DNA from: a virus
Length of the DNA: 34,906 bases
Direction: 5' to 3' (one strand)
Virus record (IMG/VR): IMGVR_UViG_3300010885_018423
Span: 1 to 34,906 of that record
Shown: piece by piece, positions 1,573 to 34,906 of the stretch
Numbering within the stretch: the stretch's first letter is position 1
How the letters are laid out: every line of letters starts with the position of its first letter
Program-made: the position numbers and the translations under genes
The notes under the pieces: model-generated
What the model was told of the DNA's origin: nothing
The model's input: the letters and a program-made list of their open reading frames with translations, nothing else
The model's database searches: none

Positions 1573-2048
1573 AGTTGTTCCTTTGAAGGTCTAGAGACTT
1601 CTGTAGCAAAGTTGCAAGCACGGATAGAATCTAGTAGGTCAGATGGCTTGACTTTCTTAAAGTCATCGGGAAAAAAGTTTTTCCCAATTAAATCTAATCC
1701 GTATGCTGCAAATTCACTGCACATCCATTGCTTGTGGTCTTTCCATTGTTTTTTAGTTCTTGGTATCAATACATTAAATGGGGCAAGAGCAGTATAGTCG
1801 TAAGGTTTGCCAATTTGACTATATGCCCATTCACGCACAACTGCTTCTTCTCGTTTAGTGACATCTAACTCAAAGTGTATCTCGTTACGGTAATCGGTTT
1901 GAGTCAATATGATGTGACCGTTTTCCATTGCTGGATAAATGCTCATTCCGTCCGAGAATACAAGTTCACAGTGGCTTGCTGGACTCCAGGTATAGAGTCT
2001 GCACAGTATTGAAAAGGGCAATAGGTTTGACGAGAATTTGATTTTCAT
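1560..2048 (-). CDS. Permuted NlpC/P60 (YiiX-like) cysteine hydrolase
   Basis: A 162-residue protein with the residue order expected of the circularly permuted NlpC/P60 superfamily: an early His in SHCELVF (H26) and a late Cys in WMCSEFAAY (C110), with IGKPYDY between them. In YiiX-like members the His and Cys form the thiol hydrolase centre acting on amide bonds in cell wall, protein or lipid. There is no signal peptide. The ATG overlaps the TGA of the S53-Hint protein gene (ATGA), so the two are translationally coupled. It might cut the cell wall, modify the tail protein next to it, or work in the infected cell; the sequence does not decide. Some family members are amidases, others acyltransferases. 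The family call is from motifs and is moderately secure; the substrate is unknown. Confidence 0.6.
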   Translation of the reverse strand: MKIKFSSNLLPFSILCRLYTWSPASHCELVFSDGMSIYPAMENGHIILTQTDYRNEIHFELDVTKREEAVVREWAYSQIGKPYDYTALAPFNVLIPRTKKQWKDHKQWMCSEFAAYGLDLIGKNFFPDDFKKVKPSDLLDSIRACNFATEVSRPSKEQLCIQ

Positions 2049-5000
2049 TTAATAAGTTTTCCAAATAGTAAGTTTCTAATACGAGGATGATCACCAATCC
2101 ACTTAACGATAGGTTCTACGGTTGATCTATTAGTGATGCCCCATGCTACTGCACGAGCCAGCAAACGGCTCTTCCAATTATCGTTATCTAGTATGTATCT
2201 AGATATCTTGTGTAGTGCATTAAAAATTCTCACTTGTTTTTCTGGAGCAAACGCTTTATTTGCCGTGTTATATACATAATTTTCATATGCCGCTTGAGAC
2301 AAGTAGCCTTTATGTAACAGTACATAGGCCGTGCCAGTTTTAATAATATTATTGACACGAATGCCGTTAGCATAATGACTTTCCCCAGTTTCCAGCATTA
2401 GATTATATACAACGACCTCTTGTGCCAATTTGATCTTATTTTTTACATCAACAATATTTACAGGGCCTAACCAAGGTGCTTGCTCTGTACATAGCGTACT
2501 AATTGCACATAACTCGTCATCGTCGTTGTACCAAGGATGTTCTTCTGTCATGTAAGGTGTTTCATCATCATGTAGTGCAAATACCCATTTGCTGACATCG
2601 TGTTCGCGAGTTTTAACTCCAATTACTCGTGCAGGTTGATTAGTTAATGCTTCTAGTACATAGTCGCCAGACTTAATTTGACTGATTTGTTTCTCTGTTC
2701 CGTCGGCCATTCGGATTAGTGTAAACGGTAAGAAGCAGCCACCTCCTCCGCCACCGCCGCTAGCGTCGCCAGTGCTTTCGCCACCTCCGCCGTAACCGCT
2801 TTCACCGCCACCTGTTGCTGGTGCATCATCATAGGCCGAACCGCCACCTGCTCCTGAGTTGGTTGTTATAGTACCAAAACTACCAGTGACCACAGTGCTG
2901 CCACCAGGGTTGCCAACACTTGGATCTAATTGAGTTCTAGTATGCCATACTATATTTCCGCCAGGGTCCTTGATTGTTAACGCAAAGCCTGCAGGACCGC
3001 CATCATTTCGAGCGTAAAACGCCAATGCTCTATTGCCCTGTGCCAAGTAAGATTGTTCAGTTACAGTTGATGTAAAACTGCCAGTTATAACAATGGGCAC
3101 TCCATCAACATAAACTTCTACGTAATTATCTGCGGCCGCTTCAAATGTATAAATTCCAGAAGCCGATGCAGTAAACAACCTACGTGATAGCACTAACTCG
3201 CCTACAGGACGTACCCCACTAGGGTCCATCCATACTGCATAACTATTCATGAAAGCATTCCATGCATAACTCAAACTAACAGGGAAGAATTGCCTATTAC
3301 TAATATTGTTTGTACCGCCGGGGTCGCCGACTGTGACCGTTATTGTTTCGCCAGGGGTCACTGTAAGGTCGTAACTGGCGGTTGTAGCACCCGAGCCACC
3401 TCCACCACCTCCACCACCTTTTGATACACCAGGATACCAAACTGCCGGTCCGCCACCTGCGCCGGCACCTACGGCCAGCATACTTAATCGTTTTACGTGT
3501 GCCGGTACAGTCCAAGTATAAGTTCCTGGACTGGTAAAGGCCTGTACGCCATTGGGTTGCGATACTGTGATTGTAACTGGAATTTGTAGCGTGGGATAGG
3601 TACGTGCGTTACTGGTAACAATAATAGTATCCGAATAAGTACCTCTGGCTAGGTTGGCGGCAGTCACTAATACTGTAGCAGTATTTCCACTAAAGTTAGT
3701 AAAATCATATCCAATAGTGCCAGGGTTACTGCCTATGGTCACACGACCGTTTTGTGCTCTTATGTTGGAAATAATCAAATTGGCACCATTGCCGCTATTT
3801 CTAATTGTCAGTGTTTGTGTTGCCGCAGAATCTAATAGATAGTAGGGCAACTGAACTGGGTTTGGTGTAACTGTAATTTCAGGGTAGTTAGTCAATACCG
3901 ACACTGACAAAGGAACCACTGTGGTAGTGTTTCCCAGATATCCTATATCATTGGTAAATGTTATGTTGCCCTCGGTGTATGTTCCTACAGTATTACCGCG
4001 AACTCTAACGCCAAAATCTCGATGTTCTCCGGGAACTAGTGTATAAGGTGTTGTTACATCACTGTGAGTATTTAGATCAGTAACAAATACATCATACCCC
4101 GAAGTTGCCGACTGGTAAGACATCCTATTAATAATTAAATCATAGTCCCCTGTGTTTGTCACAGTTAACCTATAGGGATCTCCACTGACATTTCCGTCTA
4201 AGTCGTTATCGGGTGCAGTATGATATCTATAGGGATTTAGTGTTATTGATGTTGAACTCGGAGTTAAGTTACCCTGTGGTGTTGGATATATGCGTTCCCA
4301 AGAATTATCTCTACGTTTGACCCAGCCTGTTTTAACAGGTGCCCAAGTACCATCTGTTTGTTTGACCCAGACACCTTTGAGATAGTTATAATAATTGGTG
4401 TCGGGGTTTTTAATGCTGGTAGTACCTAATCCGTACTTTGCCGATGCTGATTGCGGTACTCCTGGAGCCTCGACGATTACCGGGGTAGTTGGCAACTCGG
4501 GTTCAGGTAAAGGCGGGGGTGGTGGGGGTACCGGTACCACCGGTGTGGGTATAGTAATTATTGGCGGCGGTTCAATTGGCACTGGTGTTGGAGGCACTAT
4601 TGCCACTTTAGGTGGTGGAGGTGGTGCCGGCGGTGTTATAGTATATCCACATACTGCACTATTTGCCTGAATCAATTTTTTATAAGTACCACCATGTCCG
4701 TCTGCATAATCACCGTACTGATTAAAACCTTCGCAATATTGTCTTACCTCTGTGCCAGACGATGGCACAATAGAAATGGTGTATGCAGTAGATGCTTGTT
4801 TGTTGATATACTGAACTGGCGCTTGCGTTGCAGTTATATAGACGACATCATCACCTTTTGCTATTCTAGTAGGTAAACTTATTGCTGTTACCGTGCCTGT
4901 AATTGGATCTACGTTAGCAATTGACGAGTTAGATGATTTATAAGTTATATTACCATAACTACCGCCTGTAAGTGTTGACGTTACTGTATTTGTAATATTA

Positions 5001-6241
5001 CTACCTATCGCAAGTGTAGTAAATGTTTTAGTTTCTGCAAACCTTAAATCTGGGATCGGCACTAAAAGATCTATTAGTGCAGATCCAATTGGAACCCCCA
5101 TACCAGTTACTGGATCCCAATTTGGGTCTGCTCTATATCCTGTCGGTAATAAACTTGCATTGTTGCCTTCTAATATATCATAAAAGGCAGAGGGGTTACT
5201 ATAAAACAACGAGTTTGCTTCTGCAGAAGAAAACTTTTGACCAGTGAGTGCTCTAAATCTGGCAATTATACCTGCTGCTATAGGTGCAGATGCACTAGTA
5301 CCAGAGTATCCACCGAGCTTACCGTCTACCCATACACCATATGCATTCATAGCAGCTGCTATATCGGGGATACCACGAGTTGTTAGTAAAGTACTCGCAC
5401 CATATGAATTATTAGATCTAAAGTACTTCTGGTAATATTGTTTTCCTTGCCATTCAAAAGGCCAAAATGGTTTTGGAATTATTGAACTTACTCCACCGGC
5501 CCCAGCAAATCCTGCGTCTGCTAAATTACCAGGCTCGCTTCGATTATAAACAGTTTCTCCGCCGTAAGGTCTTGTATTACTTGCAGTTAAAGTCAAATAT
5601 GTTCCACCAACAGCAATGACGTTGGCATTAGTTGCCGGGTATCCGCATTCAACTATTGTATCATTTTTTTGACTACTACCATAATCCCCGGTCGCAACAC
5701 AAACAGTAATTCCTTTTTTAGCCGCATTGGCTAAGGGTGTATATAAAAAGTCTGAAAGCTCAGGTCCTCCCCACGAGTGAGTAATTACATCGCAATTTTC
5801 ATCAACTGCACGTTGAAATACGTTTGCATAATTTGTAAAAGGAGTACTAATATTACCGTTGCTATATTCTGTACTTTTGGCTTTATATAATACAATATTG
5901 GCTTGCGGTACCATACCGGCCACACAAACCAAATCTAAAGCATTTTCCACGTCGGTTGACGAACTAGTATTAGTTGCTCCGTCAACAGGAACAAAAGTAA
6001 TTGTTGGGGCAGCAAGCCCCATATCGTTCATTGAACGATTTAAGTCAGCCTGGCTGAATCCGCCACCAAGACTAATAATACCAACTTTGATACCTGCGCC
6101 AGTGCTTGCTGGTATGTCATACGCAGTGGCTATTTTTGGCGCGGTTAAGAAATCGTTGACCGTTGTGGCCCCTGCATAAGACTCAATTGAAGTTATGTAC
6201 GATCTAGCATTAGCAGTTATTGTCATTATATCTGGAACCAA
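2045..6241 (-). CDS. Multidomain tail protein: S53 (sedolisin) protease, Ig-like and PA14-like domains, Hint domain
   Basis: A 1398-residue modular protein. Residues ~30-395 form an S53 serine-carboxyl peptidase: ENALD (E99, D103), SWGGPE, TGDYGSS (oxyanion D186), YPATNANVIAVGGT, and GYSGTSASAP (nucleophile S316), ending in a DPVTGMGVP calcium-site-like segment. There is almost no room for the usual long S53 pro-domain. Next come a bacterial Ig-like region (~400-490), a Pro-rich linker (~530-590), two ASH/Ig-like repeats (~650-900), a Gly-rich domain interrupted by a PA14-like segment (~990-1100), and a Hint domain from C1169 to about N1298, followed by 100 helical residues. The given start is TTG with GGAG upstream; an ATG at 6226 overlaps the previous stop (TAATG) and is an equally likely start, removing five residues. 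Probably a tail adhesin that degrades surface protein and processes itself; that role is inferred. Confidence 0.8.
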   Translation of the reverse strand: MVPDIMTITANARSYITSIESYAGATTVNDFLTAPKIATAYDIPASTGAGIKVGIISLGGGFSQADLNRSMNDMGLAAPTITFVPVDGATNTSSSTDVENALDLVCVAGMVPQANIVLYKAKSTEYSNGNISTPFTNYANVFQRAVDENCDVITHSWGGPELSDFLYTPLANAAKKGITVCVATGDYGSSQKNDTIVECGYPATNANVIAVGGTYLTLTASNTRPYGGETVYNRSEPGNLADAGFAGAGGVSSIIPKPFWPFEWQGKQYYQKYFRSNNSYGASTLLTTRGIPDIAAAMNAYGVWVDGKLGGYSGTSASAPIAAGIIARFRALTGQKFSSAEANSLFYSNPSAFYDILEGNNASLLPTGYRADPNWDPVTGMGVPIGSALIDLLVPIPDLRFAETKTFTTLAIGSNITNTVTSTLTGGSYGNITYKSSNSSIANVDPITGTVTAISLPTRIAKGDDVVYITATQAPVQYINKQASTAYTISIVPSSGTEVRQYCEGFNQYGDYADGHGGTYKKLIQANSAVCGYTITPPAPPPPPKVAIVPPTPVPIEPPPIITIPTPVVPVPPPPPPLPEPELPTTPVIVEAPGVPQSASAKYGLGTTSIKNPDTNYYNYLKGVWVKQTDGTWAPVKTGWVKRRDNSWERIYPTPQGNLTPSSTSITLNPYRYHTAPDNDLDGNVSGDPYRLTVTNTGDYDLIINRMSYQSATSGYDVFVTDLNTHSDVTTPYTLVPGEHRDFGVRVRGNTVGTYTEGNITFTNDIGYLGNTTTVVPLSVSVLTNYPEITVTPNPVQLPYYLLDSAATQTLTIRNSGNGANLIISNIRAQNGRVTIGSNPGTIGYDFTNFSGNTATVLVTAANLARGTYSDTIIVTSNARTYPTLQIPVTITVSQPNGVQAFTSPGTYTWTVPAHVKRLSMLAVGAGAGGGPAVWYPGVSKGGGGGGGGSGATTASYDLTVTPGETITVTVGDPGGTNNISNRQFFPVSLSYAWNAFMNSYAVWMDPSGVRPVGELVLSRRLFTASASGIYTFEAAADNYVEVYVDGVPIVITGSFTSTVTEQSYLAQGNRALAFYARNDGGPAGFALTIKDPGGNIVWHTRTQLDPSVGNPGGSTVVTGSFGTITTNSGAGGGSAYDDAPATGGGESGYGGGGESTGDASGGGGGGGCFLPFTLIRMADGTEKQISQIKSGDYVLEALTNQPARVIGVKTREHDVSKWVFALHDDETPYMTEEHPWYNDDDELCAISTLCTEQAPWLGPVNIVDVKNKIKLAQEVVVYNLMLETGESHYANGIRVNNIIKTGTAYVLLHKGYLSQAAYENYVYNTANKAFAPEKQVRIFNALHKISRYILDNDNWKSRLLARAVAWGITNRSTVEPIVKWIGDHPRIRNLLFGKLIK
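2342..2737 (-). other. Hint (intein/hedgehog-type) autoprocessing domain inside the S53 tail protein
   Basis: Residues ~1169-1300 of the 1398-residue protein carry the Hint signatures: block A beginning at C1169 (CFLPFTLIRMADGTEK, then GDYVLE), block B TEEHPW with T1232 and H1235 in TxxH spacing, and a block F-like VVVYNLMLETGESHYANG. The usual His-Asn end of an intein is replaced by Asn-Asn (N1297, N1298), and the next residue is Ile rather than Cys/Ser/Thr. N-terminal cleavage at G1168/C1169 therefore looks possible while full protein splicing does not. A Gly-rich stretch immediately precedes it. Confidence 0.8.
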
Positions 6242-32742: not shown

Positions 32743-32766
32743 AAGTAAAAATATCCCTTTATATAA

Positions 32767-32774
32767 TATTTATG
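32767..32774 (-). promoter_or_regulatory. T4-type late promoter (CATAAATA) for the baseplate cluster
   Basis: CATAAATA on the minus strand, in the divergent region. The predicted start near 32761 gives a leader of about 19 bases with AAAGGGA before the ATG at 32742. It would drive the first genes of the tail cluster. Confidence 0.7.
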
Positions 32775-32805: not shown

Positions 32806-32834
32806 TTGACAAACTTGTAAAACTTTGTTATTAT
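32806..32834 (+). promoter_or_regulatory. Host sigma-70-type promoter for gp55
   Basis: TTGACA (32806-32811), a 17-base spacer, and TATTAT (32829-32834), one mismatch from TATAAT. Transcription would start near 32841 and give a short leader with AAGGA at 32853-32857, five bases before the gp55 ATG. This suits expression by unmodified host polymerase before late genes come on. Confidence 0.8.
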
Positions 32835-32862: not shown

Positions 32863-33741
32863 ATGCGTCATAACTATCTCAACAATAAAGATATTCTTAA
32901 AGAAATACACAAAAGTAAGACAACTTATTGTAGTTACACACACCCGGAATACAGTGAATACGATATTATTTTACCAGACTTTGGTAAACTCAATAAGAAA
33001 AATACACTAGAGGGAAGGCGCTTGCGTGCCGAAAGGCTTGCCAAATTAGCACACGAAGCGGCTACTGCTGATGGTACAAAGCGCAAATTAGACGAATTTG
33101 AAGTCAAACTCAAAGATGTCAAAGACACGGATGTTGTGTTTAGAGTTATGACATGGGATCATATTCCAGTCGATGATGCTAAAACTAAAAAAGCCCGTAT
33201 GACTGCACTAGAGATTGAGGACGACGAAGATCCGTTGCTAGTAGATTATGACGAAATGGATTTAACCCATACCAAGTATGTCAAAGTCAATTTCCCACCA
33301 TTTCAACATTTTAAACTAGATGAAGAAGGTAACCCTGTGCTGGTAGGAAAAAGCCATTGGCGCGGAGATCTAGAAACTGGGGTGTTTGACAAAGAGCACG
33401 GTACTATTACTAAAAAATTGGCTATCATGTACATGAAACTGTGCGAACGATATGCCACCCGTAGCAACTGGCGTGGGTACACATATAATGACGAAATGCG
33501 TAGTCAAGCACTATTACAATTGACTTATATTGGATTACGTTTTGATGAATCAAAAAGTGCTAATCCTTTTGCCTATTATACAGCCGCGGTCACTAATAGT
33601 TTTACACGTATTCTCAACATTGAAAAACGTAATCAAAACATACGTGACGACATCTTAGAGATGAATGGTCTTAACCCCAGTTACACAAGGCAAGGCATGG
33701 GCGGTGGCTACAGTGGTAGCGATGGTAGTTATGACGAATGA
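32863..33741 (+). CDS. gp55: Late-transcription sigma factor gp55
   Basis: A 292-residue protein whose C-terminal half matches gp55 of T4-like cyanophages: MYMKLCERYATRSNWRGY, DEMRSQALLQLTYIGLRFDESKSANPFAYYTAAVTNSFTRILNIEKRNQNIRDDILE in parts, and the end NGLNPSYTRQ followed by a Gly/Ser tail. gp55 is a small sigma-family protein that, with the sliding clamp, directs host RNA polymerase to late promoters; the NATAAATA motifs in this window are its expected targets. T4 gp55 has 185 residues; the extra N-terminal ~150 residues here contain a charged helix (EGRRLRAERLAKLAHEAA) and a strand-rich acidic part of unknown use. AAGGA precedes the ATG, and a sigma-70-type promoter lies just upstream. 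Its stop overlaps the radical SAM gene. Confidence 0.92.
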   Translation: MRHNYLNNKDILKEIHKSKTTYCSYTHPEYSEYDIILPDFGKLNKKNTLEGRRLRAERLAKLAHEAATADGTKRKLDEFEVKLKDVKDTDVVFRVMTWDHIPVDDAKTKKARMTALEIEDDEDPLLVDYDEMDLTHTKYVKVNFPPFQHFKLDEEGNPVLVGKSHWRGDLETGVFDKEHGTITKKLAIMYMKLCERYATRSNWRGYTYNDEMRSQALLQLTYIGLRFDESKSANPFAYYTAAVTNSFTRILNIEKRNQNIRDDILEMNGLNPSYTRQGMGGGYSGSDGSYDE

Positions 33742-34906
33742 TATTAAAGTTCTTGATAGAATTTTTTTACACGAATACAACAAACTAAACATCCTATACA
33801 AAAAAATTGTATCATTAAAAAAAGACGTTTTTCAGGACAATGAACGAATTTATTTTGTTTATAATCCCAATTCTTCAACGTCTACAGATACCGTACAAGA
33901 ACTATTAGACTTTGTTGACATTCCGAGATTTTTTGTTGTTTTTGAAGAAGACCAACAGCTTCCGTTATTTGAACTAGACTTTGTTCCAAAAGAATCTCAT
34001 TGTATCTATCCTTGGATAAACTCTGTAATTTTTAATCAAGGAAAATTAGAACCTTGTTGTATGTATAAAGGAACTGATAATGCAAACATTAAAAACGTTT
34101 CGTTAGAATCTTACTACATGAGCAAACCGATGGTAAACCTTAGAGAACAATTTAGACAAGGCAAATACGACAAAGGTTGCTCTCAATGCTGGAAAAACGA
34201 ATCAGCCGGGGTTATTAGCATGAGGCAACAGGCAAAGTTCAAGTTAAAAGATATTTACTATCAAGTTGATTACGGTCAAGACGATATTCAAAACCTTCAA
34301 ATGCTAGATTTAAAGTTAGGAAATACGTGTAACTTATCGTGCAGAATATGTGACTCATCGGCAAGTTCTAAAATAGCCGAAGAAGAGCTATTACACAATA
34401 ACATATCCGACCAAAAGTTTATACAACTAAAAGAATCAAGTCGGTGGTCTGAATCTGAAATATTCCAAAATCAAATATTATCCATTGCAGACAATTTAAC
34501 TTACTTAGACATTTACGGCGGCGAGCCATTGATGAGTAAGGCACATTTTACATTTCTCAAATCGTTAATAGATCTAGGAGTGGCTAGTAAAATTAAGATT
34601 GATTATAACTCAAATGGAACTGTATACTCAGACAAGTTTTTTGAGTATTGGAAGAATTTTAAAGAAGTTAAGATTAGTTTTAGTATAGACAACATTGGAG
34701 AAAGATTTGAGTTAGAAAGGAACGGTGCGTCCTGGGATACGGTATGTAAAAATATCGGTAAATTTAATTCAATGAGATCAGAGTCATTCAAAACAGATGT
34801 GTTTCCCACTGTTAGCATTTTAAATGTGTACTATCTTCCTGAATTATTAGATTGGATCAATAGTCAAAATTTTAGTCAGCCTCCATCTTTTAATATGTTA
34901 AGCAAC
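33731..34906 (+). CDS. Radical SAM protein with N-terminal twitch/SPASM-like cysteines, cut by window edge
   Basis: An open frame from ATG 33731, overlapping the gp55 stop by 11 bases, to the right edge: 392 residues with no stop. CNLSCRIC (C200, C204, C207) is the CxxxCxxC that holds the radical SAM [4Fe-4S] cluster, and YGGEPL (~262-267) is the SAM-binding GGE motif. Before it come C91 in HCIYPW, CC at 109-110 in LEPCCMYKG, and C150/C153 in GCSQCWKNE, a set expected to hold an auxiliary cluster as in twitch/SPASM-type enzymes, here ahead of the core. Such enzymes often modify peptides or proteins, but no precursor peptide is visible. Similar twitch-type radical SAM genes are known from aquatic phages. 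Substrate unknown. The ribosome binding site is weak (GGT), implying coupling to gp55. Confidence 0.85.
   Translation, partial: MTNDIKVLDRIFLHEYNKLNILYKKIVSLKKDVFQDNERIYFVYNPNSSTSTDTVQELLDFVDIPRFFVVFEEDQQLPLFELDFVPKESHCIYPWINSVIFNQGKLEPCCMYKGTDNANIKNVSLESYYMSKPMVNLREQFRQGKYDKGCSQCWKNESAGVISMRQQAKFKLKDIYYQVDYGQDDIQNLQMLDLKLGNTCNLSCRICDSSASSKIAEEELLHNNISDQKFIQLKESSRWSESEIFQNQILSIADNLTYLDIYGGEPLMSKAHFTFLKSLIDLGVASKIKIDYNSNGTVYSDKFFEYWKNFKEVKISFSIDNIGERFELERNGASWDTVCKNIGKFNSMRSESFKTDVFPTVSILNVYYLPELLDWINSQNFSQPPSFNMLSN

Follow-up and report, generated by a model that had tools for sequence, protein, structure and literature searches.

Introduction

The closest described relatives of the gene studied here belong to NF033640 (N_Twi_rSAM, 'twitch domain-containing radical SAM protein'), a named family whose entry gives no function and in which an N-terminal twitch domain is followed by the radical SAM core. 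BtrN, a twitch radical SAM dehydrogenase of solved structure (PDB 4m7t, 4m7s), has its twitch after the core. Peptide maturation commonly involves SPASM and twitch domains (PMC11002830). Among cultured phages, N-twitch radical SAM proteins occur in the Vibrio phages KVP40 (KVP40.0260) and K566, and a T4-like marine genome with 12 radical SAM genes as well as Fe-S assembly genes has been reported (Nishimura et al., 2017; PMC5332604). A literature search of partial coverage returned no paper on N_Twi_rSAM, none on radical SAM enzymes together with a carbamoyltransferase in phage genomes, and none combining radical SAM, jumbo phage and glycosyltransferase.

We analysed a 34,906-nucleotide stretch of viral DNA (IMG/VR record IMGVR_UViG_3300010885_018423, positions 1 to 34,906; hereafter the window), at the right-hand edge of which an N-twitch radical SAM gene overlaps the gene for the late sigma factor, gp55. 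The encoded protein shares with NF033640 the N-terminal twitch and the core behind it; unlike that family, it has an extra domain of ~85 residues before the twitch, and its gene lies behind gp55. The KVP40.0260 and K566 proteins (24-27% identity) lack the extra domain and their genes do not adjoin gp55. Like the phages considered here, the genome of Nishimura et al. has many genes for radical SAM enzymes and for Fe-S assembly, whereas neither the pair in the gp55 operon nor the ordered array of radical SAM genes reported below is described in the accessible part of that paper (PMC5332604). The family is ordinary, and its setting is unusual.

Results

The radical SAM gene (33731..34906, + strand) starts with the ATG at 33731 and runs without a stop to base 34906, where the IMG/VR record itself ends, so that 392 codons are visible. 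The upstream gene gp55 (32863..33741, + strand) matches phrog_12791, 'sigma factor for late transcription', with 263 bits (6e-78), and ends in the TGA at 33739-33741, leaving 11 bases in common between the two genes. Both the open frame and the overlap are as originally noted. A first scan of viral contigs with the whole window protein found no relatives; a scan with residues 1-300 as the query retrieved five (L257-L261). In all of them the radical SAM gene lies directly behind gp55, with gp47 next, and is complete at 463-486 aa. Since L258 and L259 carry the same sequence here, these are four independent cases. The closest relative, L257, encodes a radical SAM protein of 463 aa that is 72% identical to that of the window and has the same 11-base overlap with gp55. 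The missing 3' end is thus present in a relative, and because this homologue closes at 463 aa we expect a full length of ~463 aa, with ~71 residues past the contig edge; the early stop just beyond the edge, which would have counted against the gene, did not occur in any of these relatives. Identity to the window protein is 58% for L258, 50% for L260 and 43% for L261, and the corresponding gp55 proteins are 85% (L257), 73% (L258), 67% (L260) and 68% (L261) identical to the one in the window. In the radical SAM pairs with the window, synonymous sites are saturated or nearly so and dN is 0.18-0.53, from which we conclude that the gene has been maintained by selection. The window gene is a real, selected gene. 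In L257 (8433-11167) the interval between gp47 and gp46 holds a 447-aa membrane-protein-like gene, without an NCBIfam match, and an AMP-ligase-like gene.

Despite the loss at the contig edge, the window protein scores 272 bits against NF033640 (E 8e-81), above the curated cut-off of 170 bits, and spans profile positions 2-310 of 398; closed L257 spans 2-397, and the closed relatives L257, L258, L260 and L261 reach 308-337 bits (L257, 308). Pfam Radical_SAM covers residues 196-351 (6.5e-8) and Pfam SPASM residues 91-154 (7e-4, slightly below its curated cut-off). With a CxxxCxxC motif (C200-C204-C207, 34328..34351, + strand) and a partial TIM-barrel core (residues 188-392, 34292..34906, + strand, incomplete at the edge) the protein is a member of the radical SAM superfamily. 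Before the core lies a twitch domain (residues 88-157, 33992..34201, + strand) with C91, C109, C110, C150 and C153. An alignment of 45 sequences shows C91, C109, C150, C153 and the three core cysteines without exception, and C110 with a conservation of at least 90%. The core motif and the five upstream cysteines had been noted from the start. They are present, although the upstream set is no peculiarity of this gene: since the NF033640 score exceeds the cut-off, this placement ahead of the core is characteristic of the whole family.

An alignment to twitch-type enzymes had been proposed as a check. When 45 relatives were combined into a profile, its first section aligned with BtrN at the C-terminal end (E 4e-4), and the BtrN cysteines match C91, C109, C150 and C153, four of the five pre-core cysteines. 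The C-terminal auxiliary layout of BtrN and anSME is absent, the cysteine domain of the window protein being N-terminal, and the alignment gives no shared substrate; the ends of closed homologues have no second cysteine set after the core. In an AlphaFold2 model (mean pLDDT 80, residues 1-85 poor) the best solved neighbours of the core are NifB, SuiB, viperin and SkfB (Z ~11), followed by BlsE, anSME and MoaA, matches that reveal the type of chemistry but no substrate. The N-terminal extra domain (residues 1-85, 33731..33985, + strand), predicted with low pLDDT, is common to the operon relatives and found no convincing match in Pfam or the PDB. In a profile search, matches above 90 bits occur only in radical SAM proteins of the gp55 operon, a restriction that is partly circular because the profile was built from operon members; the relatives L257-L261, likewise located in the operon, score 28-62 bits, and the domain is weakly present in some radical SAM proteins of the array described below. 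A 183-aa protein between gp47 and gp46 (L031:9947-10495) matches this domain but has no radical SAM part (E 5e-4). Elsewhere in the window, a 1398-aa protein (2045-6241, - strand) resembles, as judged by eye, a serine peptidase in its N-terminal part (GTSASAPIAAG) and a Hint/intein domain in its C-terminal part (CFLPFTLIRMADGTEKQISQIKSGDYV); its Pfam matches are confined to a Gly-rich domain and weak Ig-like hits.

The best isolate relatives of the window gp55 are found in PA5oct-like Pseudomonas phages, Phosso, Atu_ph07 and Rak2-type jumbo phages. To describe the gene order we surveyed the 80 best-ranked gp55 loci, which are a sample rather than a census (L257 lies outside them). The order is gp55 - gp47 (SbcD) - gp46 (SbcC), with a cargo slot of variable content between the first two genes. 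This slot is empty in 61 of the 77 loci with a readable gp47 and filled in the other 16, by radical SAM genes (six, three of which are copies of one sequence), SGNH-type genes (four), an unknown family, 'cl9' (four), and HNH/GIY-YIG-like homing endonuclease genes (two), the SGNH, cl9 and endonuclease labels coming partly from reading the sequences. The slot is empty in PA5oct and Atu_ph07, and in Phosso it holds an annotated glycosyltransferase gene with no Pfam match. Radical SAM genes are also found in the gp47-gp46 interval and behind gp46, and the cargo includes AMP-ligase, aminotransferase, SDR and methyltransferase genes. In one case (L029:691-1548) the C-terminus of an SGNH-type cargo protein encoded behind gp55, GLTPSYTRQGQGGTWGGGGGSYGEDD, strongly resembles that of gp55 itself, as though insertion of the cargo had gone along with a duplication of the gp55 tail.

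That the pair of gp55 and radical SAM gene might be unique to this contig, which would have counted against it, is not borne out. It recurs in several uncultured large phages: a radical SAM gene follows gp55 directly in eight other distinct contigs (L257, L258, L260, L261, L024, L033, L044 and L077), in four of which it is of the same subtype as in the window (43-72% identity). Given that empty slots, radical SAM slots and slots with unrelated genes all occur, we conclude that the slot takes cargo and that the pair has been kept within one lineage.

Upstream of gp55 lies a sigma70-like promoter sequence (TTGACA-17-TATTAT with TG; 32806..32834, + strand; 11/12 matches). It is the best of nine such sites in the region, against 8.6 in shuffled sequence, and over all loci the sigma70-like scores before gp55 are not raised (8.8 versus 8.4 in shuffled sequence). 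On the opposite strand, facing the structural operon, is ATAAATAT (32766..32773, - strand), a motif resembling T4-type late promoters. ATAAATA is the heart of the T4 late promoter. Because exact TATAAATA is rarer than chance in the window (1 versus 4.9), we took the shorter ATAAATA over many loci as evidence: 60 of the 74 related loci carry it on the structural side (6.6 expected there) and seven of the 74 on the gp55 side. Promoter-like sequence persists, as judged by eye, before gp47 behind the cargo. With the late motif on the structural side and a sigma70-like promoter before gp55, the sequence favours early or middle expression of the radical SAM gene, together with gp55.

When the window protein and three relatives from the operon served as queries, IMG/VR contigs (L088-L167) were retrieved, most of which hold about five distinct N-twitch radical SAM genes in an ordered array, encoding roughly 465, 450, 440, 404 and 432 aa. 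These genes are followed by one for a conserved unknown protein, 'cl0' (~359 aa), then by genes for SGNH hydrolases and for a carbamoyltransferase of NodU type. Array neighbours are on the same strand in 401 of 410 cases and overlap or abut in 372 of 410. No match to cl0 was found in Pfam or PHROG, and its structure matches are to a cyclophilin-like barrel alone (Z 8.0-8.8, near the level common for the tool). A tree places the window protein beside array member 4, with weak inner support (0.51) and an outer support of 0.92, and one contig has both an array and a gp55 that is 81-82% identical to the window's. Contigs of 337-354 kb contain 11-21 family matches each, some below the family cut-off, and each contains iscU; the contig of L113 (G009, 346,856 bases) has 21 N-twitch radical SAM family matches. 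At L250:3590-5509 (G001:C1 ~256.6-258.5 kb) an N-twitch radical SAM gene is flanked by genes for an A-type Fe-S carrier and an iscU-like protein; the iscU match of G001 is split over two frames, perhaps through a sequencing error or because the gene is broken. In Vibrio phage K566, GT8-type glycosyltransferase genes are interleaved with N-twitch radical SAM genes. The neighbours of bacterial relatives showed no clear common theme.

Discussion

On balance we lean towards the N-twitch radical SAM gene being long-standing cargo of the gp55-gp47-gp46 operon, expressed from an early-type promoter, independent of the sigma factor in its action and part of a tailoring repertoire rich in radical SAM enzymes. 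The phage would be a large one, related to PA5oct and Rak2-type phages, and the enzyme, whose start lies inside the end of gp55, would be made with gp55. Judging from the conserved cysteines, a [4Fe-4S] cluster on C200/C204/C207 would split SAM to give the 5'-deoxyadenosyl radical, and a second cluster could be bound in the pre-core twitch by C91, C109, C150 and C153, with C110 as a fifth conserved cysteine. The role of this twitch cluster might be, like that of the C-terminal twitch in BtrN, to hold the substrate in position or to accept an electron.

The original prediction was of a protein- or peptide-modifying enzyme, made with the late sigma factor, that could alter host machinery or virion proteins; we weighed it as an enzyme that modifies gp55, the RNA polymerase of the host or proteins of the virion and is functionally linked to late transcription. 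The overlapping adjacency to gp55 conserved in L257-L261 fits such a role, as do the protein and peptide modifiers SuiB, anSME and SkfB among the core fold matches, but we now consider it unlikely. The tie to the late sigma factor finds no support, given that the same slot is filled by unrelated genes or, in PA5oct and Atu_ph07, by none, that other radical SAM genes occupy the gp47-gp46 interval or follow gp46, that the late motif is on the opposite, structural side, and that promoter-like sequence precedes gp47. Modification of a protein or peptide as such may still be what the enzyme does, although the usual sign of it, a precursor peptide gene, is missing beside the relatives. For this reason a maturase of a ribosomally made peptide, with the precursor encoded elsewhere in the phage or host, seems more doubtful still. 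SPASM and twitch domains are frequent among peptide maturases (PMC11002830), and homologues weakly match the PapB, GG_samocin and SkfB models; every maturase model match, however, is far under its cut-off. A small precursor gene, for which a search had been proposed, was not found beside the radical SAM gene in L257-L261, where gp55, the radical SAM gene and gp47 are packed and leave no room for one, and the gaps of the tightly spaced arrays have no conserved small ORF. A nucleotide- or DNA-modifying enzyme, with viperin-like nucleotide chemistry or DNA base hypermodification, is very improbable: viperin is among the core matches (Z ~11) and aminotransferase and AMP-ligase genes are among the cargo, but similar scores are shared by many radical SAM cores, the twitch aligns with that of BtrN, the hits of viperin models in homologues fall far under cut-off and no base-modification gene was recognised in the annotated part of the window.

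Food for further thought is the target of the cargo enzyme that we favour. The arrays, the iscU-bearing contigs, the genome of Nishimura et al. (PMC5332604) and the GT8 neighbours in K566 would all point, through guilt by association with neighbours in other phages, to a sugar, a surface glycan or a small molecule, rather than a dedicated peptide, and the window enzyme is most likely one tailoring enzyme of the phage biosynthetic repertoire. Tentatively, the operon subtype with its own N-terminal domain and the array of about five radical SAM enzymes, cl0, SGNH hydrolases and carbamoyltransferase could form a phage pathway to a radical-modified molecule for the virion or host; such a pathway might, as a similarly speculative suggestion, be an undescribed one.

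Radical SAM enzymes depend on iron-sulfur clusters and as a rule do not tolerate oxygen well. That phages keep one behind gp55 under selection, carry 11-21 family matches and bring iscU along implies that they must gain from this chemistry. If the substrate of one member were found, a large set of related phage enzymes would become accessible; the compact genes of 463-486 aa behind gp55 are a practical starting place.
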